Assembly: GCA_015067435.1 (NCBI GenBank)
Contig: SVMM01000004.1
Coordinates: forward strand, 124,001-188,000
Source: Oscillospiraceae bacterium
GTDB taxonomy: Bacteria; Bacillota; Clostridia; Oscillospirales; Oscillospiraceae
DNA: 64,000 nt
Direction of reading: 5' to 3'
A program made the position numbers and the translations under genes. This document shows, one piece after another, positions 53,426 through 63,756 of this stretch; position 1 is the stretch's first letter; every line of letters starts with the position of its first letter. The notes under the pieces were generated by a model, which did not search any database, was not told the DNA's origin, and saw only the letters and a program-made list of their open reading frames with translations.

Positions 53426-53502
53426 GGGAGCATAGCTCAGCTGGTTAGAGCACCTGCCTTACAAGCAGGGGGTCACTGGTTCGAGTCCAGTTGTTCCCAC
53501 CA
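53426..53502 (+). tRNA. tRNA-Val(UAC)
   Basis: The acceptor GGGAGCA pairs with TGTTCCC. Anticodon loop CTTACAA, encoded CCA end. Confidence 0.97.
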
Positions 53503-53508
53503 TGCTAC

Positions 53509-53585
<77 letters not shown>

Positions 53586-53588
53586 TTT

Positions 53589-53664
<76 letters not shown>

Positions 53665-53667
53665 TTT

Positions 53668-53743
53668 GCGGGCATAGCTCATCTGGTAGAGCGCCACCTT
53701 GCCAAGGTGGAGGTAGCGAGTTCGAGCCTCGTTGCCCGCTCCA
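53668..53743 (+). tRNA. tRNA-Gly(GCC)
   Basis: Acceptor GCGGGCA/TGCCCGC, anticodon GCC in loop TTGCCAA, CCA encoded. Confidence 0.97.
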
Positions 53744-53751
53744 AAAAAGAG

Positions 53752-53773
53752 AGGCCGGCCATCCGGCCGGCCT
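53752..53773 (+). terminator. hairpin between tRNA-Gly and tRNA-Cys
   Basis: AGGCCGGCC, ATCC loop, GGCCGGCCT, then TTC. It may end most transcripts before tRNA-Cys. Confidence 0.65.
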
Positions 53774-53783
53774 TTCATCATAC

Positions 53784-53858
53784 GGTGACATAGCCAAGTG
53801 GTAAGGCAAGGGTCTGCAAAACCCTCATTCCCCGGTTCAAATCCGGGTGTCACCTCCA
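53784..53858 (+). tRNA. tRNA-Cys(GCA)
   Basis: Acceptor GGTGACA/TGTCACC, anticodon GCA in loop CTGCAAA, CCA end encoded. It is the last gene before the AT-rich island. Confidence 0.97.
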
Positions 53859-54192: not shown

Positions 54193-55185
54193 TTATTCCT
54201 TAATCCCCTTCAAAGCCGTGATTACATCAGCCATAAGATCGGCGGTAGTTGCATCCTGCCTCGGAACGCCACCTATTACGGCATCCTTGAACAGTGGAGA
54301 TTTCGAGAGATAGCCATCTGATGATTTTGGGTCTAAAAGCTTTGACAGCGGAATTTCTACGGCTTCCTCGCCACAAGCCAAGTGTGCACTCTGACTAGAC
54401 AACACGCTCAGTATGTCAACGCCGCCCCAAAGCTCAAAAATCTCTTTGACTGCCTCTTGCTTATCATGGGCAATCTGTGCCAGGTCATTTTGCAGGAGAG
54501 CGCGTTCAACAGACTCTAATAGGACAAGGTCAGAAAGCAAATCAACAACCTTTCTGAGAATGTAGCCACGCAGTTCAGTCTCGGCCTCTTTTTCCAAGCC
54601 AAGTTCGTGAAGCAACTCTGCATGAGCGAGCCTCTTGTCATTTTTTCTATCAGGGACTTGTGCAAGTGCATTCTCTGCTTTAGCGCGATCACCCCTCTGC
54701 CCGTAAAGACCAACAAGGGTAAAGGATATATCTTCTGCTTGTTCGGGAAGAAGCTCCAGAGCCTTCTCGTAATACTCGATTAGACGTGACAAGCGTTCGA
54801 CATGACTCGAATTATCCCCAATGAGCGAGGTTGACATTATTGCCTCGGCAAAATCTAGGTATAACTGACCGTCCGCTGGGTTTTGGCGCAGCATTTCACT
54901 CATATACGAATATGCTTCGTCGGCTTTCCCGTCAATAAAAAGCATTCTGGCACGATCCTTGGCAAGATATCGCTCGGTATCAGATAGTGACTGATAAAAC
55001 GAGAACAGCTCGTTCAAGTCTGTTTTCAGAGCTCTAGCAAGTGGAGCTAGGATAGCGACATCCGGATAGCTAAGATTTTTCTCCCAGCGGTTTACCGCAG
55101 GAGCAGTCACACCGAGACGCTCTGCAAGTTGAGCTTGTGTTAAGCCTACCGCCTTTCTTTTCTCTTGAATGACATTACCTATCAT
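54193..55185 (-). CDS. XRE-type HTH regulator with TPR-like helical domain
   Basis: 330 residues. An N-terminal HTH (LTQAQLAERLGVTAPAVNRWEK) is followed by about 250 residues of helical repeats (LIEYYEKALELLPEQAEDI, VGLYGQRGDRAKAENALAQ) with TPR spacing. Such proteins are often peptide- or stress-responsive regulators. The ATG has GGAGG 7 bases upstream. It is divergent from the restriction-modification operon and could control it. Its AT-richer codon use fits the island. Confidence 0.9.
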   Translation of the reverse strand: MIGNVIQEKRKAVGLTQAQLAERLGVTAPAVNRWEKNLSYPDVAILAPLARALKTDLNELFSFYQSLSDTERYLAKDRARMLFIDGKADEAYSYMSEMLRQNPADGQLYLDFAEAIMSTSLIGDNSSHVERLSRLIEYYEKALELLPEQAEDISFTLVGLYGQRGDRAKAENALAQVPDRKNDKRLAHAELLHELGLEKEAETELRGYILRKVVDLLSDLVLLESVERALLQNDLAQIAHDKQEAVKEIFELWGGVDILSVLSSQSAHLACGEEAVEIPLSKLLDPKSSDGYLSKSPLFKDAVIGGVPRQDATTADLMADVITALKGIKE

Positions 55186-55284
55186 GTCAATTCCTCCGAA
55201 CAATTTGATTTGTGATCACGGGGTCATTATAACAGCAACAGCTCGGTTTTACCACATATTGTTCGTTAAAAGAAACGAAAGAAA

Positions 55285-55450: not shown

Positions 55451-55657
55451 GTGGGCGTTTCTTACCGAAAGCTATTCAAGCTTCTCATTGACCGCAAGAT
55501 GAAAAAGAAAGATCTCATGGAGGCTTCGGGCATTAGTCCGTCTTCTATGGCGAAGCTGGGGCGTGATGAGACTGTTAGCCTTGAAGTGCTGATTAAGATT
55601 TGCACTGCTCTACAGGTCGATTTTGGCGACATCATGGAAATCGAAGCTGGGGAGTGA
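55451..55657 (+). CDS. small XRE-family HTH protein
   Basis: 68 residues from a GTG with GAGG 7 bases upstream. The protein is a single HTH domain of the family that starts VSYRKLFKLLIDRKMKKKDL and continues ASGISPSSMAKLGRDETVSLEVL (quoted in two parts). It ends 6 bases before the D12 methylase, so it is likely the controller (C) protein or a repressor of the operon. Confidence 0.88.
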   Translation: MGVSYRKLFKLLIDRKMKKKDLMEASGISPSSMAKLGRDETVSLEVLIKICTALQVDFGDIMEIEAGE

Positions 55658-55663
55658 GACATT

Positions 55664-56743
55664 ATGGGATATAGGTATATCGGCTCAAAAGCCCGGATTG
55701 CCGATGATATTCTGCGGTATCTTGGTCCACCGAAGACAACGGATGGGTGTTTCATCGATGCTTTCTCTGGGACTGGCGTTGTAGCGAGCAAGGCAGCAGA
55801 TCTCGGCTGGCAAATCAAGATAAACGACATGATGCACAATGCTGTGGTGATGTCAGAAGCGAGATTGGTTTCCCGTGCAGACGTGCCATTTTCTTCCCTT
55901 GGTGGTTACGCTGAAGCACTTGAAGATTTGCGTCAAACAGAGCGGAAAGGGTTTATCTGGCGCGAGTATTCTCCCGCTTCGCTTCAGGAGATTGGCATAG
56001 AGAGAAAATACTTCACGGAAGGTAATGCGAAACAAATCGACGGGGCGGTTGAAAAAATCCATGACTGGAGAAAAAAAGGGACAATCAATGCCAAGGAATT
56101 TGCTTTACTCATTTCTACGCTGATCTTTGCAGCAAACAATGTTGCAAACATTGCAGGAACTTACGGATGCTTTTTATCAAAATGGCAACCTCAGGCCCTC
56201 GGGACGCTAAACCTTGTTCCACTTGAAGTACGCGAGGATAGAGTAAAATACAACGTCACAACTGATGATGTCTTTGCTGTCACTAGCAAGCCGGAGGATG
56301 TAGTTTATCTTGATCCACCGTATACAAAGCGTCAGTATGCCTCATATTATCATATTTTGGAGACTATTACGCTCGGCGATGAGCCGATTGTCGAGGGTGT
56401 GGCAGGACTGAGGCCGTGGAAAGAGAAGGCATCTGTGTTCTGCTATAAATTAAAGGCGCTTCGTGCATTGGTCAATCTTGCATCCTCACAAGAGGCGCAC
56501 CGTGTCCTGATTTCGTATAGTAATGATGGACATATTCAGCTCGATCATCTGGTTGAGGAATTAGAAAAGACTGGCACAGTGGATGTGTTGGAACTCGGTT
56601 CTATTGGTCGATATCGGCCAAACGTGATTGCAAGCTCGCACAAACAGGCGGTCAGAGAGTATTTGATTGACTATAGGCATGACAGGGGGACGGAGCGTGA
56701 GCAGACCGTTGACGCTGGAGCAGTTGCTTCTCAGCAAAGCTGA
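55664..56743 (+). CDS. D12-class N6-adenine DNA methyltransferase
   Basis: 359 residues. SAM-binding motif near the start (YIGSKARIADDIL, DAFSGTGVVASKA) and the catalytic DPPY in VVYLDPPYTKRQYASYYH, in the alpha-class order. Methylates adenine N6 within the recognition sequence. Its start follows the small HTH gene at once, and the C-terminal end is overlapped by the next methylase gene by about 47 bases. Confidence 0.92.
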   Translation: MGYRYIGSKARIADDILRYLGPPKTTDGCFIDAFSGTGVVASKAADLGWQIKINDMMHNAVVMSEARLVSRADVPFSSLGGYAEALEDLRQTERKGFIWREYSPASLQEIGIERKYFTEGNAKQIDGAVEKIHDWRKKGTINAKEFALLISTLIFAANNVANIAGTYGCFLSKWQPQALGTLNLVPLEVREDRVKYNVTTDDVFAVTSKPEDVVYLDPPYTKRQYASYYHILETITLGDEPIVEGVAGLRPWKEKASVFCYKLKALRALVNLASSQEAHRVLISYSNDGHIQLDHLVEELEKTGTVDVLELGSIGRYRPNVIASSHKQAVREYLIDYRHDRGTEREQTVDAGAVASQQS

Positions 56744-58853
56744 TGAATATTTAAAATGTATTTCTTCTGATTACGAACAGAGGCTACTGGTGCTTGAGGC
56801 GTATACCGCAAGAATCGGCGGTTTTGATATTGAGAAATACTGGTCGACTTTTCAAATTGAGGTAAACGATGCCGATTTGGTAAAAAATGCCGCAAAGACG
56901 CTTGACCATTTTCTTTCAGAAGCAGACATACCGACTTCACTTGCACTGTCCAGCCTAGCACGGGAGCCTATTCCATTTTCGGAGAAAAAGAAAAATGGAG
57001 CGTTTTATACAGATTTTCGGCTGGCTCAGTTTGTAGCGGATGACTGCAGTTCCTACATTAACCGTGACAGCAGTGTAGCGGATATCGCTGCAGGATCAGG
57101 GATTCTGCTGGCTGCGATTGCGGAGAAATACTACTCCCTTTATCCCGAAAACTATAATCAATGGATTTCCAAGCATGTCTTTGCGTATGATCTCTCAGCA
57201 AATGCGCTTAGAGGCGCCAGAATTGCCCTCATGGTTCATGCTACATCTGTTGAGGCAATCAAGAACATGTGCGGAAACTGGCTAGTTTGCGACAGTTTGC
57301 TAACAGAAGATACAATACTTCCTCATTTTGATATTATCGTAGGGAATCCCCCGTGGGGAAAGGTGAAGCTCTCGCTCCATTCGTTTATCAACAAGGCGGG
57401 TGGCGATTACCATGTTTACGGCTCGCAGTATGGCGAGTTTGATAAGGAGGAGTTTTTAAGCGAAAAACAGAGCGCACTTGAATATAGCAAGGCATTAAAA
57501 AAGCGATATTCACTTCTTGGCGACGCAGAACCCGATATGTACATGGCATTTTTGCAAAAAGCCATCTCCGTTCTCACACCCGGCGGTCATCTATCTTATC
57601 TTGTTCCAGCCGGACTCATTCGTTCACTTGGCACTGAGGAGCTTCGCCGTTTTTTGCTTGGTAACAGCGAAACCCTAAAGTATTACCTGTTAGATAATAA
57701 GGCAAACTTTTTCGAAATCGATACACGCTTCAAGTTTGTTATTATCTCTCAGAACAAAAAACAACATAATGGTTCCGAATGCGACTCTTTCTTGTTCGAG
57801 ATTTGCAACGGGAATAAATGTGGCATTAGCGGGAGCGAAGAAATCGGGTTTAACGTAGAAGAACTGGAAGAGATTCGTCCTGACCTAACAGTCCCTGAAT
57901 GCAGGAGCAAGGCTGAAAAAGACCTTTTCTGCAAAATCTGTAGTAATGGTCGTACTTGGAAGGATGCGTGGTTGGTCGATATTGCTCGGGAAGTCGATAT
58001 GACAAACAACCGCACGGATTTCCATGGGCATGACTCAGATTCTGATATTCCTGTCATTGAAGGACGGATGGTGCAACAATTCCGTTTCGGTGCAAAAGCT
58101 TATGTATCTGGAAGCGGAAGAAGTGCAAAGTGGGTGCCAAATGTCGGAACGATTAAAGCGCAGTTCTTTATGAGTCGAGAGGCTTTTAGTGACCATCTGC
58201 TGCGTAGGATTGATACATTACGTGCAGGATACTGTGACATCGCAGGGCAAACGAACGAACGCGCGATGATGGCGGCCATTGTCCCCCCCGGTGTGGTGTG
58301 TGGAAATAAAGTGCCTACCATAGTATTCCCCGGAGATGACGGAGAAAAGCAGCTCTACTTCTTCATCGGTGTAACAAATAGTTTTGTTTTTGATTGGGTA
58401 TTGCGGCGGGTGCTCTCAACAACGGTCAATTATTTTCTCTTGTTTAGCCTTCCTATGCCGGATATTGACCTTAACAGCAAACTAGCAAACAGAATAATTT
58501 CTCTGACAAAAGATCTTTCTGGAATGGGTGCGGAGTATTATACAGATGCAAAGATGGGGCGGATTCGAGCGGAGCTTGATCTTGCAGTGGCGCAAAGCTA
58601 TGGGTTAGGATTTCGTGATCTTGAGCTTATCATGAGTGATTTTCCGCTGCTTGATCGACACCAGCCGTCCGTCAACGGAGAGCACCGTTCCACTTATACA
58701 CGAGATTTGTTACTATCGATTGCCGAGAAAGAGTTTGGGGAAAAAGTGCGGGGTTATACCCGGCGGGCAGAGTTGGCTGAGAAACAGGATGCGAGGGCAT
58801 ATATCCCAACAGAGATGGTTGAACTCATGAGAGAGGAGGCCCAAAATGCCTGA
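56697..58853 (+). CDS. Eco57I/TaqI-like N6-adenine DNA methyltransferase
   Basis: About 718 residues from a GTG with GGGGGA 6 bases upstream. An N-terminal helical part is followed by GAFYTDFRLAQFVADDC, motif I VADIAAGSGILLAAIAEKY, motif IV IVGNPPWGKVKL, then a long C-terminal region that resembles TaqI/Eco57I-type target recognition domains (EGRMVQQFRFGAKAYVSGS). No PD-(D/E)XK nuclease motif is seen at the N-terminus, so I read it as methylase plus specificity rather than a type IIG enzyme. Confidence 0.88.
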   Translation: MSRPLTLEQLLLSKADEYLKCISSDYEQRLLVLEAYTARIGGFDIEKYWSTFQIEVNDADLVKNAAKTLDHFLSEADIPTSLALSSLAREPIPFSEKKKNGAFYTDFRLAQFVADDCSSYINRDSSVADIAAGSGILLAAIAEKYYSLYPENYNQWISKHVFAYDLSANALRGARIALMVHATSVEAIKNMCGNWLVCDSLLTEDTILPHFDIIVGNPPWGKVKLSLHSFINKAGGDYHVYGSQYGEFDKEEFLSEKQSALEYSKALKKRYSLLGDAEPDMYMAFLQKAISVLTPGGHLSYLVPAGLIRSLGTEELRRFLLGNSETLKYYLLDNKANFFEIDTRFKFVIISQNKKQHNGSECDSFLFEICNGNKCGISGSEEIGFNVEELEEIRPDLTVPECRSKAEKDLFCKICSNGRTWKDAWLVDIAREVDMTNNRTDFHGHDSDSDIPVIEGRMVQQFRFGAKAYVSGSGRSAKWVPNVGTIKAQFFMSREAFSDHLLRRIDTLRAGYCDIAGQTNERAMMAAIVPPGVVCGNKVPTIVFPGDDGEKQLYFFIGVTNSFVFDWVLRRVLSTTVNYFLLFSLPMPDIDLNSKLANRIISLTKDLSGMGAEYYTDAKMGRIRAELDLAVAQSYGLGFRDLELIMSDFPLLDRHQPSVNGEHRSTYTRDLLLSIAEKEFGEKVRGYTRRAELAEKQDARAYIPTEMVELMREEAQNA

Positions 58854-59385
58854 GAGACCGAACATAGGCGTAAAACTGGTAATCTATAAGCGTATTGTCG
58901 AGGGGGACCTGAGCAAATTCACTGCAACTTCCAATATCACTCCATCCGGAGGCGGAGCGCGGGATTTACGTTTTAGCCCTGCGGCTATGTTTTTCCCGAA
59001 GTTCCAGAGAATGTTTCCAGCGGACACTGATGGCATTCTCCGGGGCCAGTTCTTCTGGGCCAACCATGCGCCGACCGAGGCGGAAATTCACCCACCGACA
59101 AACTCGCGTCCAAATGAGGTTCGGATTGGGAAAATCCATGAATGCTTTCCGCAAGAGGTAATACCGAGCGACTCAACGGACTGCGTACTCCTCATTGTGC
59201 TCAATGACGCAGGGCAAGTATATCCGCACTTTACCAGCCTTGCTTCATTGAGGAACGAAAACTGGCATCCAGCAGTAAGAGACCCGATTATCAGGGGCCT
59301 GATTGCGCCAAGAAGTGCAAAAATTACGGCAATGGGGTATGTTGACATAGAAAAAGGAGGGGAATACTCGAATGAACGAACGTGA
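58846..59385 (+). CDS. unknown 179-residue protein of the restriction-modification operon
   Basis: No family recognised. It starts PERPNIGVKLVIYKRIVEG, is rich in strands and aromatic residues with no membrane segment, and has the pattern PSGGGARDLRF and FFWANHAPTEAEIHPP. It overlaps the methylase by 8 bases and the AAA+ gene by 14, so it is produced with them. McrB homologues normally carry an N-terminal DNA-binding domain; here the AAA+ protein lacks one, so this protein may be the detached recognition module (inference). Confidence 0.8.
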   Translation: MPERPNIGVKLVIYKRIVEGDLSKFTATSNITPSGGGARDLRFSPAAMFFPKFQRMFPADTDGILRGQFFWANHAPTEAEIHPPTNSRPNEVRIGKIHECFPQEVIPSDSTDCVLLIVLNDAGQVYPHFTSLASLRNENWHPAVRDPIIRGLIAPRSAKITAMGYVDIEKGGEYSNERT

Positions 59386-60466
59386 AGTCTTGCAGAATCT
59401 TCAGGCAAAGAAGAATGTCCTTTTGATGGGCGCACCAGGAACCGGTAAGTCAAAGCTCATGAATGATGTCGCCAGAGCGTTTGAGCGCGGTATTGAGATA
59501 AACCCCACTCCGACACATAACCCCGGTGCAGCCATTCCAATCCCGGCAATTCCGGACGCTAACACTCTCGGTACACTGCCCATGATGCAGAGAGCGCATC
59601 GGAAGGTGTTTCGGACAACGCTTCATCAAAACTCAAAATTTCGTGATTTCCTGACAGGGATTACCCCGCGCTTTGATGGTTCCGAAGGATATCAGATTAG
59701 CGAAGGTATCCTCTACCGCGCCAACGAGTTTGCAAAACAACCTGATAGTGCTGCACTTCTTATCATTGATGAGCTTAATCGTGGCCCGGCGATTGAAGTC
59801 TTCGGCGGAAGTATTGTAACGATAGAAGCAGACAAGCGTCTCGGCGATGACAACACCCCTGCAGCAAACACACAGTTCTTTGAGATTGTTAGCCCCGATA
59901 CGGGCGATTACATTGAATACGCATTTTCCCCGCATCTTTATATTCTTGCCGCGATGAACCAAGCTGACGTTTCTGTCGCACCGCTTGACGTTGCATTCAT
60001 GCGAAGATGGATGAGCATGATGCTCGAACCCAACTATTCTCCAATCTATGATAAGTTTGGTATTGTAGCAACAGCAGATATTCCCGTAGAGAACCCGTCA
60101 ATTCAGGACGTTTATCATGTCGCCGCAAAAGCATTGGAGGCCATCAACAAAAAGATCGTCGTTGGCCGAGGCGCGGAGTATCAACTCGGACAGGGTGTTT
60201 TTCTTTCGACTTCTCCCTCGGGGAACACGCTAAACGACGCACTCAAGTTTGTTACGGATGCATGGGCGATGATCTATGCACATATCGAAGAACTGTTCTT
60301 TGGTGAGCCGATTGCAATGGCTTATGTTTTGAACGCTGACAGTGATAGTTCTCCATACTCGTTGCAAGAAGTCACTTTTGCAGGGGAAGCAAAGTTTGTG
60401 TTGTCCCATACTGAGATTAACTGCGATACGATTTTTGGACTTTACCGCTCACTTTTGGAGGAATAA
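59372..60466 (+). CDS. McrB-like AAA+ NTPase
   Basis: 364 residues, almost only the motor domain. Walker A GAPGTGKSKL near residue 20, Walker B LLIIDELNRGP, and LAAMNQADVSVAPLDVAFMRRW, which aligns with the MNTAD signature and arginine finger of McrB GTPases. In McrBC the ring translocates DNA and drives the nuclease partner. It starts at ATG with GGAGGGG 9 bases upstream, 14 bases inside the unknown gene, and ends 5 bases before the mcrC-like gene. Confidence 0.9.
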   Translation: MNEREVLQNLQAKKNVLLMGAPGTGKSKLMNDVARAFERGIEINPTPTHNPGAAIPIPAIPDANTLGTLPMMQRAHRKVFRTTLHQNSKFRDFLTGITPRFDGSEGYQISEGILYRANEFAKQPDSAALLIIDELNRGPAIEVFGGSIVTIEADKRLGDDNTPAANTQFFEIVSPDTGDYIEYAFSPHLYILAAMNQADVSVAPLDVAFMRRWMSMMLEPNYSPIYDKFGIVATADIPVENPSIQDVYHVAAKALEAINKKIVVGRGAEYQLGQGVFLSTSPSGNTLNDALKFVTDAWAMIYAHIEELFFGEPIAMAYVLNADSDSSPYSLQEVTFAGEAKFVLSHTEINCDTIFGLYRSLLEE

Positions 60467-60471
60467 CAACC

Positions 60472-61719
60472 GTGAAGCTGACGCTTGTCGAATATGGCAA
60501 CGGAATAGAGATTGCCGAGGACATTCGGCCACTAATAGACCGGGCGAACAAAGTCATAGGACAAGCTCTCCGGGTTAAGCGAAGCGCGCTTGTAATTACC
60601 GACGGGAAACTCCGGGCACTCGGAATCGCTGGAACAATTCGCCTCGACAAGAACCTTGAACTCGAAATTGTTCCAAAGATGCTCGACGATCAAGGCGAGA
60701 GCGATTGGAAAGAGTCGTTGTTCCTGCTTGCAGCTCTTTCCAAATATGGAAACATCATTACGAGTGAGCATATCCATTCAAGCACCGCCTACAAGGATTC
60801 ACTTTATGATATTGCCGGACGAGTGCTGGCAAGGGAGTATTCTCACCTCCGACGGAAGCCAATCCGACAGTATCGGCGCGAGAAATTTGCAGATTTCTCT
60901 ATCGAGGGAGAAATCAATTTTGAACTTGTTTTTGAGAGAAATCCAGATGGCATTCCGCAGGAACGAGTGTCCTTTGATAAAATCAACCCTTATAACGCAG
61001 CGATCCAAGCTGCAATGCGAATCGTGCTGCCCTATGTTAAAGAGGCTTCGATTCGAGAAACGCTCAACCGAGCAATACAAGAGCTTGGCCATCAATCTCG
61101 GTTTATCCCAAAACGGCTCAAAGTGCCCGCTCGGAATCGCGAATGGGCGGAGACCTATAACCTCGCCTATGATATCGTTACTGGCATGGGCAGTTCTTTG
61201 GAGAATGGCGAAATCATGTCGCCAAGCTTTATTGTTGACACATGGAGAATTTGGGAATGGTTGATCACCGTTGCCTTTAAGGTTGGTCTCGGAAACAGAC
61301 TCCGTGTTATTCCGCAAGCTACCATTCCATGGGGAGAGAAGAAAGCAAATGGAAAACGATCCCGAGTCAATGTTTTTCCCGATGTTGCAATATACAGCCT
61401 TACCGATACCGCAGAGCCGATTTTTCTCGTCGACGCAAAGTACAAGACTCTTTCCGATAACACAGAAATAGATCGTTCAGACCTTTATGAAGCGTTTGCT
61501 TTCTGTCACGCTACTGGCGCAAAAAAGCTGTTTCTCGCGTATCCAACGATTGCCGAAGATGAGATAGAATCTGGAAGTGTTGCAACTGTATCCAACTACG
61601 AAATCGAGGATGTGACGATTTCCGCCATTCAGGTTGCGTTCGGATCGATTACAAAGCAAGGCGATATAACGGCGTTTTGCCGAAAAATGTCAGCAGAGAT
61701 AATGACGGCTATCGCCTGA
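60472..61719 (+). CDS. McrC-like PD-(D/E)XK endonuclease subunit
   Basis: 415 residues. The N-terminal McrC-like domain (LFLLAALSKYGNII, LLAREYS-like helices, NRAIQEL) leads to a C-terminal nuclease core with VFPDVAIY and FLVDAKYK, the D...DxK pattern, preceded by WRIWEWLI. It should cut DNA under control of the AAA+ partner. The start codon is GTG after GGAGGAATAACAACC. Together with two adenine methylases this is arranged like LlaJI-type R-M operons, where the methylases are cytosine type. Confidence 0.9.
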   Translation: MKLTLVEYGNGIEIAEDIRPLIDRANKVIGQALRVKRSALVITDGKLRALGIAGTIRLDKNLELEIVPKMLDDQGESDWKESLFLLAALSKYGNIITSEHIHSSTAYKDSLYDIAGRVLAREYSHLRRKPIRQYRREKFADFSIEGEINFELVFERNPDGIPQERVSFDKINPYNAAIQAAMRIVLPYVKEASIRETLNRAIQELGHQSRFIPKRLKVPARNREWAETYNLAYDIVTGMGSSLENGEIMSPSFIVDTWRIWEWLITVAFKVGLGNRLRVIPQATIPWGEKKANGKRSRVNVFPDVAIYSLTDTAEPIFLVDAKYKTLSDNTEIDRSDLYEAFAFCHATGAKKLFLAYPTIAEDEIESGSVATVSNYEIEDVTISAIQVAFGSITKQGDITAFCRKMSAEIMTAIA

Positions 61720-61848
61720 CAAAAACGGGTAAAACAGTCGAAGTTCGATGGTGGCGGGAATTGAAACGACAGCGAACCAGAACGACTGAAACCACAATGG
61801 CACGACTAGTTCAGAGCATAGCGTCGCAGTAACAACAAGGAGATAAAA

Positions 61849-62568
61849 ATGACTGATAAGGAAACTCTCAAAATCGGTATGGCCGCAATGGAACGAGCCA
61901 TTCAAAGTAATAGGCTTTTCGAAGAAGACTTTGATGCCATATCTGATGCAGCAATTGCACTGAGTGATGTTGTCTATGACGGTATGGTATCATACAAGCA
62001 AAGTGGATTAGATGTGCCATACTTGGCCATGGAAGAAACCATGTTTGATATGGACCTGGACCAGTATACACGGATATTTGAAAACACCCTCTTCGAGAAT
62101 GATTCGATACATGATACTTATTATCTTCTGGGAAACTTATATCTAAATGAGCATTATGGTATTGTTTCAGACAGGATTAACAGAAAAATAGAAATAGTAA
62201 CTCAAGGTGTCCATATTTGTTCGGTTCTGAAACTCAGGGGAAAGCCAGAATATGTCAAAAAAGCTTTGGGATTCAAGAAGGAAATCTGTGGTCACATTGT
62301 TGATTGCTGCGACTTCTATCAGTTTTGGGTAGATAGAAGTGAAATGGATATTCACTATTACGGACTATCTGCGGCACAGAAACAGCCATTGATTAACGTT
62401 TACATTTCCATGCTGAGAGATATAAGGCAAATTGAACCAGACTATATGCGAAGCGCACAGTGCTTTCAAATACCAGATCCTTATGATCTTCCCTCAGAAG
62501 AGATGCCGGAGATAGAGCGCAGAAATATTGCAAAAGAAGAGTGGTTTAGAAGCATTGAGCTGACATAA
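61849..62568 (+). CDS. unknown 239-residue protein
   Basis: A helical, soluble protein with charged ends. No recognised motif; cysteines at ICGHIVDCCDF. The ATG has AAGGAG 7 bases upstream. It lies 130 bases after mcrC-like gene without an evident terminator, so it may be the last gene of the defence operon or an independent cargo gene. A terminator follows. Confidence 0.75.
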   Translation: MTDKETLKIGMAAMERAIQSNRLFEEDFDAISDAAIALSDVVYDGMVSYKQSGLDVPYLAMEETMFDMDLDQYTRIFENTLFENDSIHDTYYLLGNLYLNEHYGIVSDRINRKIEIVTQGVHICSVLKLRGKPEYVKKALGFKKEICGHIVDCCDFYQFWVDRSEMDIHYYGLSAAQKQPLINVYISMLRDIRQIEPDYMRSAQCFQIPDPYDLPSEEMPEIERRNIAKEEWFRSIELT

Positions 62569-62659: not shown

Positions 62660-62740
62660 ATGAACAAATCCAGACACCGGCCCCAACGTGGTCCGCCCCC
62701 CGTATCGGAAGCCAGAAGGCAACTGAATAGAACGAAATGA
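62660..62740 (+). CDS. 26-residue leader peptide
   Basis: ATG preceded by AAGGAG; the peptide starts MNKSRHRPQRGPPP, is rich in Arg and Pro, and ends RTK. Its stop TGA overlaps the base of the intrinsic terminator that follows, so ribosome position would decide whether that hairpin forms. A coding role beyond regulation is unlikely. Confidence 0.55.
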   Translation: MNKSRHRPQRGPPPVSEARRQLNRTK

Positions 62741-62791
62741 GGTCGTTTTGTGCGTATGGATCACCCATGCGTAGAAAACGGCCTCTTTTTT
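62739..62791 (+). promoter_or_regulatory. attenuator: intrinsic terminator in the leader of the second D12 methylase
   Basis: An 11-bp lower stem (GAGGTCGTTTT/AAAACGGCCTC), one mismatch, then a 9-bp upper stem and a 5-base loop, with six T directly after. It lies about 50 bases before the methylase start. Confidence 0.75.
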
Positions 62792-62815
62792 GCTTTGTGG
62801 GCATCCATGCGCCGA

Positions 62816-62835
62816 CGACCTCGGATTGGAGGTCG
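62816..62835 (+). promoter_or_regulatory. SD-sequestering hairpin of the second D12 methylase
   Basis: CGACCTC/GAGGTCG stem in which the GGAGG ribosome-binding sequence (62828-62832) is largely paired. Confidence 0.6.
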
Positions 62836-62841
62836 ATAACC

Positions 62842-63756
62842 GTGGCTGCGTCCTGTAGCCCACTACCTTACATTGGGAACAAGCAATGCATTAGGAGGCA
62901 ACTTCTCGCCATCACGCCCCCGCACGATACCTATATCGAGCCTTGCATGGGCAGCGCAGAGTTTTTCTTCTACAAGCCTCCGTCCAAGTTCGAGATCCTC
63001 AACGACTTCGACGGCGACCTTGTGAACACGTTCCGAGTAATCCAGCAAAGCGAACCGTTGATCTACCTCGTCGGCAGGCTTTATATGTCCATCAACTCGG
63101 AGCAGCTCTTCAAGCTGAATCGAGAGCTGCTGCTGGGGACGCCGAATATCCTGGATGACCTGAAGGAAAACGCTGAAATCATCAAGGCCGCCACTTGGGA
63201 GGACGTCCAGCGTGCGGCGGCGTTCTTCGAGAACCATGTCTACAGCTTCTCCTCCACAGGCCAAACCTACGGGATCGACAGCCGGGATATGGGCGCGAGG
63301 ATAGCCCGAATCCTTGCGGTCGTGGACAGACTGAGGAACGCCTCTATCCTGCACAGGGACTACAAGGACGCCATTCTGTACGGAGCGCGCGAGGGCGCTT
63401 ATATCCTCTGCGATCCGCCCTACAAGGGAACGGAGGGGATGTATCCTAAGGGCTCGTTCGAGGCTTCCGAGCACGAGAACCTGTTTCGGTTCTTCTACGA
63501 GAATGTGCACAAAGCCTTCAACGGAGCCTGCAAATTCACTATCACCTATAACGATTGCCCCATGATTCGAGAGTTGGCTGAGAACTACGGGTTCTTTACC
63601 CTCGGAATCGACCGTCTGCACAATATGCGCCAGCGCGTAGATGCGGGCGGGCAGTTCCACGAGTTCCTCGTGTCGAACTACGACATGGAGAAGCAAGCCG
63701 AAGAGAATCATCAGCTTCACCTCATCCAGACGAGCCAGCTGACGCTCTTCGGCTGA
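62842..63756 (+). CDS. D12-class N6-adenine DNA methyltransferase (second copy type)
   Basis: 304 residues from a GTG behind GGAGG. The order is LPYIGNKQCIRRQLL, YIEPCMGSAEFFFYKPP (SAM site), ILNDFDGDLVNTFR and DPPYKGTEGMYPKG (catalytic). GC-rich codons set it apart from the AT-rich methylase 6 kb upstream. Such solitary Dam-like methylases are common on conjugative elements, where they protect DNA against host restriction. An apparent longer reading to 62737 crosses the attenuator and is rejected. Confidence 0.9.
   Translation: MAASCSPLPYIGNKQCIRRQLLAITPPHDTYIEPCMGSAEFFFYKPPSKFEILNDFDGDLVNTFRVIQQSEPLIYLVGRLYMSINSEQLFKLNRELLLGTPNILDDLKENAEIIKAATWEDVQRAAAFFENHVYSFSSTGQTYGIDSRDMGARIARILAVVDRLRNASILHRDYKDAILYGAREGAYILCDPPYKGTEGMYPKGSFEASEHENLFRFFYENVHKAFNGACKFTITYNDCPMIRELAENYGFFTLGIDRLHNMRQRVDAGGQFHEFLVSNYDMEKQAEENHQLHLIQTSQLTLFG

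Follow-up and report, generated by a model that had tools for sequence, protein, structure and literature searches.

A conserved cassette of two probable adenine methyltransferases, an McrBC-like pair and a candidate stand-alone DNA reader

How does a restriction system find its target when its McrB-like motor has no room for a DNA-reading domain? This question is raised by a gene cassette in a 64,000-nucleotide stretch of DNA from an Oscillospiraceae bacterium (assembly GCA_015067435.1, contig SVMM01000004.1, positions 124,001 to 188,000 of the forward strand), hereafter the window, whose first letter is position 1. The cassette encodes, in order, two probable N6-adenine methyltransferases of different classes (M1 and M2), a 179-amino acid protein (X), a McrB-like AAA+ motor and a McrC-like nuclease. 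Together with a small helix-turn-helix (HTH) gene before M1, these genes lie on the plus strand within a low guanine-plus-cytosine (GC) stretch of the window. An initial annotation, made from the sequence alone, had named these six genes; all six are present, and profile searches confirm their families, with the 179-amino acid protein unmatched. We propose, with a probability of about 0.75, that the cassette is a mobile type II restriction-modification system derived from McrBC, in which M1 and M2 protect the host, X reads the unmethylated site, and the AAA+ and McrC proteins cut.

A fixed five-gene unit

M1-M2-X-AAA-McrC is one fixed unit, found together far beyond what chance would give. A genome scan with an AAA+ alignment of five rows (A1) alone and two short peptide patterns, which was not exhaustive, returned 39 loci; 34 of them carry the five genes in this order, all on one strand. 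These 34 include L011, whose M1 and McrC genes are cut by contig ends, and L022, which has an insertion inside McrC. The other five are L033, cut by a contig end and retaining AAA and McrC only, the permuted relative L045, and the distant McrB-like loci L046-L048. When viral contigs were scanned with X, five loci were confirmed, and all five genes are present in each. Four plasmid records (L003-L005 and L007) also hold the five genes, while L066, which reads M2-X-AAA-McrC and is cut at both ends, was kept outside the counts. The loci are not all independent, as the cassettes of L041-L043 are near-identical to that of plasmid L007. Across loci, the genes mostly overlap or are spaced by a few tens of bases, and the distances of M1, M2, AAA and McrC correlate at 0.79-0.89. 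The composite operon of the initial annotation, which joined two classes of adenine methyltransferase to a McrB/McrC-like pair, is thus found in distant bacteria. The possibility that the AAA+ and McrC genes are elsewhere unlinked to the methyltransferases is not borne out.

Motifs were counted in 43 sequences per gene, which reduce to 38-40 unique rows. The rows dropped were those of L006 (cut by the record start, with M1 elsewhere in the record), L011 and L033 (contig ends), L045 (no X), L008, L009 and L046-L048 (distant AAA+ only), our own copies L001 and L002, and identical rows. The McrC set of 40 takes in the shorter frame of L007 and part of the interrupted gene of L022, both unmended. 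The insertion in the latter (L022:9114-12904) carries transposase-like genes that are, by reading, IS66-like.

The AAA+ protein (59372..60466, 364 amino acids; AAA_5, 1.7e-10) matches McrB-type chains by profile, namely 6ut3, titled “GTPase subunit of restriction endonuclease” (5e-26), and 6hz4, McrB (2e-20). Walker A and DE(I/L/M)NR are present in 39/39 unique rows. The MNQAD motif noted in the initial annotation is also present, and its N..D signature, as in McrB, is kept in all 39. However, the arginine of the McrB signature MNxxDRS, described as conserved across all McrB homologs (PMC7680126), gives way here to V (15 rows), A (14), T (7) or S (3). In all 34 rows for which a start codon was chosen, the Walker A motif starts at residue 14-31, which leaves no space for a reader domain at the N terminus. 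This differs from type IV McrBC, where the methyl-reading N-terminal domain sits on McrB (PMC12707154). A variable stretch of the AAA+ protein lies between Walker A and an RDF motif. The McrC-like protein (60472..61719, 415 amino acids, GTG start; McrBC PF10117, 3.3e-21) shares with McrC the PD-(D/E)XK nuclease type, and its PD...DAK motif is found in 40/40 unique rows. Searched at E up to 1, it gives PF10117 as the sole match, whereas the LlaJI-type nuclease of L055 matches PF09563.

M1 (55664..56743, 359 amino acids; MethyltransfD12, 2.2e-27) is of the D12 class and keeps its DPPY motif in 39/39 unique rows. M2 (about 56709..58853, about 714 amino acids) is of the NPPW class and Alw26I/Eco57I-like, with its motif likewise kept in 39/39. 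As read from the sequence, its likely start is the TTG at 56709, in a frame open from 56667. M2 matches Eco57I at 9.9e-12 and TIGR02987, the Alw26I family, at 1.1e-37 with 129.9 bits, which is below the family cut-off of 353.5. M1 aligns with one half of the two-domain methyltransferases that adjoin FokI- or AlwI-type nucleases (L049, L054 and L069). Since M1 is related to such half-methyltransferases and M2 to the Alw26I family, albeit below cut-off, it is reasonable to suggest that the two may act on an asymmetric site, with one adenine per strand. We also observed, on a Roseobacter plasmid, an M1-like D12 gene beside an N6-methyltransferase that is weakly M2-like (L052:2263-6108; 1.3e-5). 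A convergent protein there has weak HNH matches below cut-off, and this locus is perhaps an M1 relative with another nuclease.

The 179-amino acid protein as a candidate DNA reader

X (58846..59385) is probably the detached DNA reader, that is, the target-recognition subunit, of the AAA+ motor. Under the thresholds applied, it matches nothing in Pfam, PADLOC, NCBIfam or PHROGs, and by sequence nothing among solved structures up to E 10. Its predicted model (predicted local distance difference test, pLDDT, 90.4) has a B3 pseudobarrel fold matching BfiI and LlaJI.R1. The model also matches the restriction-enzyme readers EcoRII and UbaLAI, and the comparison includes plant transcription factors, which carry the B3 fold too. 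Among the 28 entries listed, no chain is titled SRA, EVE or YTH. Of the five proteins, X shows the lowest conservation (median pairwise identity 0.33; 0.38 for McrC), and 9 of its 12 invariant residues fall in two stretches, 29-42 and 88-91.

Several observations point to this role. X is predicted to share its fold with the reader that LlaJI carries on its GTPase. The X gene directly precedes the AAA+ gene, where a fused McrB would carry its reader, and overlaps it. In the window, the overlap is 8 bases between M2 and X and 14 between X and AAA+, with a gap of 5 bases between AAA+ and McrC; with start codons chosen by rule, 36 of the 39 loci measured show an X-AAA+ overlap of 1-14 bases. GTPase-only subunits have already been described in LlaI and BsuMI: their GTPases, of 337 and 343 amino acids, come from cassettes of three open reading frames (ORFs) and align full-length with R1.LlaJI (PMC1459862). 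The initial annotation had found it unusual that the motor should lack a DNA-binding domain. This view is not supported, given these known subunits and the adjoining protein with a predicted B3 fold.

The split of a reader from its GTPase is also seen directly, by sequence match, in the LlaJI branch, which supports the same role for X. A survey of Bacilli for GTPase-only McrB, in which at most five candidates were scored per genome, gave a match in 60/398 genomes; 62 of the 67 places listed lie in frames of at least 450 amino acids. We inspected five places, with frames of 203-466 amino acids, and one of these (L102) is a split LlaJI-like case. Here, a 281-amino acid gene before a separate 413-amino acid GTPase matches residues 21-258 of a fused 644-amino acid protein of L057 (27% over 243 amino acids; E 4e-24 when searched among 14 proteins). 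The other four places have no X, M1 or M2 match among the frames listed. A further short frame, in G1109, contains an internal stop. The order at L102 (L102:2559-8917) is an M2-like methyltransferase (profile 5e-11), a 5-methylcytosine (m5C) methyltransferase, the 281-amino acid reader, the GTPase and a PF09563 nuclease. At L057 (L057:1347-9237), a LlaJI-type GTPase and nuclease lie near methyltransferases on the other strand, which form a mixed Eco57I-like and m5C pair, and an HTH gene.

A further pointer is the Bhargavaea locus L028 (L028:3788-10375). Its M1 departs in 18/95 and its M2 in 32/126 of the columns that are nearly invariant elsewhere, while the next most departing row does so in about 5% for each. 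In such columns, its McrC departs in 2/39 and its AAA+ in 9/66, fewer than the AAA+ of L043. Its X departs in 2/15, one of which is R39M within GGGARD. Though a single case, L028 has the look of a locus whose specificity changed while its motor and nuclease were largely retained. It hints that X might be a free, exchangeable reader, much like HsdS in type I systems, which loads the ring in trans, with specificity swapped through X and the methyltransferases. We put forward this idea only tentatively. Under it, the near-uniformity elsewhere of the X motifs, and of the methyltransferases, would suggest that the other members, as far apart as Clostridia, Streptomyces and E. coli, have a single target site in common.

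Some results weigh against X as the reader and against the wider proposal. X has no detectable sequence kinship with the readers of L102 and L045, and its distances correlate less well with those of the other four genes. In L045 (L045:7485-13963), which lacks X, the AAA+ gene encodes an N-terminal stretch and is followed by McrC, M1 and M2; this stretch, folded alone, gave an unusable model (pLDDT 33.6). Furthermore, no LlaI sequence was recognized among the Lactococcus and other plasmid regions inspected, which were of FokI, AlwI, LlaJI or other type, and no BsuMI sequence was identified. Homology of X to the N-terminal stretch of L045 was rejected (hhalign probability 1.3%), and viral contigs scanned with the L045 AAA+ protein yielded no relative.

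Mechanism, precedents and rival explanations

Under the proposal, M1 and M2 would each modify one adenine, the two most likely lying on opposite strands of a single asymmetric site, and very probably protect the host in this way. X would read the same site when it is unmethylated on incoming DNA and deliver it to the AAA+ motor. As in McrBC, McrC would activate the motor ring, which would translocate on DNA with nucleoside triphosphate hydrolysis, and McrC would cut. The HTH protein would probably tune expression. We infer DNA binding by X and its work with the ring, as well as the unmethylated substrate, the asymmetric site, translocation and phage defence. The steps after recognition are modelled on McrBC (PMC7680126) and LlaJI (PMC1459862).

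Restriction systems of this kind are known but rare, with LlaI, BsuMI and LlaJI as precedents, and the cassette is a variant of which little has been described. It has the features of the McrBC-related type II class, namely a McrB-like AAA+ protein with a McrC-like partner and a linked methyltransferase pair. LlaI reportedly has a controller gene and FokI-like adenine methylation, and its methylase is said to be a single FokI-like fusion; M1 and M2, in contrast, are separate proteins of two classes. BsuMI is said to have cytosine methyltransferases, unlike M1 and M2. The likeness to both lies in the restriction part: X and McrC flank an AAA+ protein here, which agrees with an architecture of three ORFs and a GTPase-only subunit of about 340 amino acids. 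We compared both by description only, from one account of this part in LlaI and BsuMI (PMC1459862) and from another that describes LlaI, of Lactococcus plasmid pTR2030, as McrBC-related with a type IIS methyltransferase pair (PMC2614495). That LlaI, BsuMI and LlaJI cleave unmethylated DNA and are accompanied by such a pair is stated in the latter paper, and relatives of this kind have been published more than once (PMC2614495, PMC3874153). Associations of McrB with methyltransferases in general are likewise published (PMC2614495, PMC11090510); the second of these papers mentions a methyltransferase-associated McrB branch and defers the details to a subsequent publication.

LlaJI of the pNP40 type resembles the cassette in having two methyltransferases, for the asymmetric GACGC, with McrB-like and nuclease subunits (PMC1459862), and in having a B3 reader (PMC12707154), the fold predicted for X. 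However, we reject membership in LlaJI on the features compared. Its methyltransferase pair is m5C, whereas ours is of the D12 and Eco57I/Alw26I classes; its reader is fused to the GTPase (R1, 585 amino acids; PMC1459862), whereas X and AAA+ are separate genes; and its nuclease (R2), with L055 taken as the example, is PF09563 rather than PF10117. PcaI of strain RC5297 is also similar, as a McrB/McrC-like nuclease that restricts unmethylated DNA and adjoins a methyltransferase. It differs in having a single Dcm-like m5C methyltransferase for CCNGG, and in that the divergent N-terminal part of its McrB-like protein is held to bind DNA, with no stand-alone reader mentioned in the parts of the paper available (PMC8989522). 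The initial annotation had raised the chance that this gene order is already catalogued, and we find it as a named system in none of PADLOC, NCBIfam, Pfam or PHROGs. In the literature searched, whose coverage mostly leaves out subscription papers, the gene order did not turn up, and neither did a B3 subunit standing alone beside McrBC.

Could the cassette instead be a methylation-dependent defence of type IV kind, in which X, AAA+ and McrC attack foreign methylated DNA, and M1 and M2 mark self in another way or regulate? PF10117 and the kinship to McrB are those of type IV families, and the nuclease is not of the LlaJI family PF09563. Against this stand the two methyltransferases in the same operon in 34/39 loci and the match of X to the readers of the restriction enzymes BfiI, LlaJI.R1, EcoRII and UbaLAI. 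BfiI, EcoRII and UbaLAI act on unmodified DNA. For LlaJI, action on unmodified DNA is stated in PMC12707154. We therefore consider a type IV-like system very unlikely.

A role for X as a regulator or assembly factor, with recognition of the site left to the AAA+ insertion or to McrC, is unlikely. Such a role would suit the low conservation of X, the occurrence of the B3 fold in plant transcription factors and the variable stretch in the AAA+ protein. Yet X is present in all 34 and all 5 loci that hold the rest, its invariant residues are clustered, its gene occupies the place of a reader, and the LlaJI reader has a B3 fold (PMC12707154). Two independent modules, a methyltransferase pair and a McrBC motor, could in principle travel together by chance, and M1-like genes do occur with other nucleases of FokI and AlwI types. 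The synteny leads us to reject both chance clustering and two unrelated modules, as all five genes are present in 34 of the 39 AAA+-anchored loci and in each X-anchored contig, mostly overlapping or close, with correlated distances for M1, M2, AAA and McrC; this explanation is thus extremely improbable. The McrBC-derived type II system with X as its reader remains our preferred explanation. It gives the GTPase-only relatives of McrBC, the little-studied LlaI/BsuMI type, a concrete candidate for their missing DNA reader.

Distribution and surroundings

The cassette is widespread. We grouped hosts into phyla ourselves from record titles; by these titles, they include Clostridia, Bhargavaea, many Proteobacteria, actinobacteria (Streptomyces and Blastococcus), a Desulfuromonadales metagenome-assembled genome (MAG) and, with a cut locus, a Gemmatimonadota MAG. 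Near the window genome, however, it is rare: X was found in 1/149 relatives and 1/398 genomes of the phylum, each time in the window's own genome. With X from L017 as query, there were matches in 6/72,556 plasmid records, and X had no match among sequenced phage records. Megablast with the Citrobacter copy, which detects closely similar DNA only, found the cassette in 5/5,426 E. coli genomes, four at 99.9-100% identity and one at 88%. The E. coli matches, with gene tables inspected for two, have all five genes in order, annotated singly. Such natural E. coli copies of a widespread family make the question of how the site is read testable at the bench.

These loci have probably been booked as lone methylases or stray McrC, because PADLOC 2.0.0 barely detects the nuclease half. 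Its best match to the AAA+ protein has 29 bits, and there is none to X or McrC. In comparison, its models fit the LlaJI-type proteins of L055 full-length (1391 and 1000 bits), although they are named only REase_II.

The cassette looks mobile. It lies amid integrative-conjugative-element genes in the Citrobacter plasmid and in one E. coli chromosome, and another E. coli copy has an integrase gene about 8 kb away. In L007 and L041-L043, it follows a resolvase-like gene. In the window, a tRNA cluster (Val-Asp-Phe-Gly-Cys) lies at 53426-53858, and GC content drops downstream from about 0.63 to 0.47. The region from this point to the contig end is probably an integrated mobile element.

The slot before M1 is variable. 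In the window, it holds a small Cro/C1-type HTH gene (55451..55657, GTG start; HTH_26, 1.4e-19), and an HTH protein 63% identical to it occupies the same place in L059. This HTH is absent from the AAA+-anchored loci, in which M1 is preceded by a different small gene or by none. Among the 43 loci listed, the slot contains a ribbon-helix-helix-like protein in 13, by reading of the list (one example, run against Pfam, matched below cut-off), and a resolvase-like gene in 4 (L007 and L041-L043). Since the small gene varies between loci, the HTH is accessory and outside the conserved core, though it is probably a controller that tunes expression. Thus, of the six-gene operon first described, the last five genes stand as the core, and the HTH is shared with L059 alone among the loci compared.

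The cassette ends at 61719. The range first given, 55451..62568, correctly spans the genes, but its right edge takes in a 239-amino acid gene (61849-62568) that is foreign to related loci and has no match in Pfam, NCBIfam, PADLOC or PHROGs. It is followed by a third adenine methyltransferase gene (62737-63756), which is D12 and Dam-like (phrog_56, 5.5e-42), and then by a small gene that looks AbrB-like. We rejected the 239-amino acid gene and the third D12 gene as parts of the cassette, since they are present in 0 related loci of the AAA+-anchored and X-anchored sets. On the other side, between the tRNA cluster and the cassette, an HTH-TPR regulator gene lies on the minus strand (54193-55203). 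Beyond the window, up to the contig end (L067), there are SpoVG, sortase, thioester-domain and reverse-transcriptase/HNH genes.

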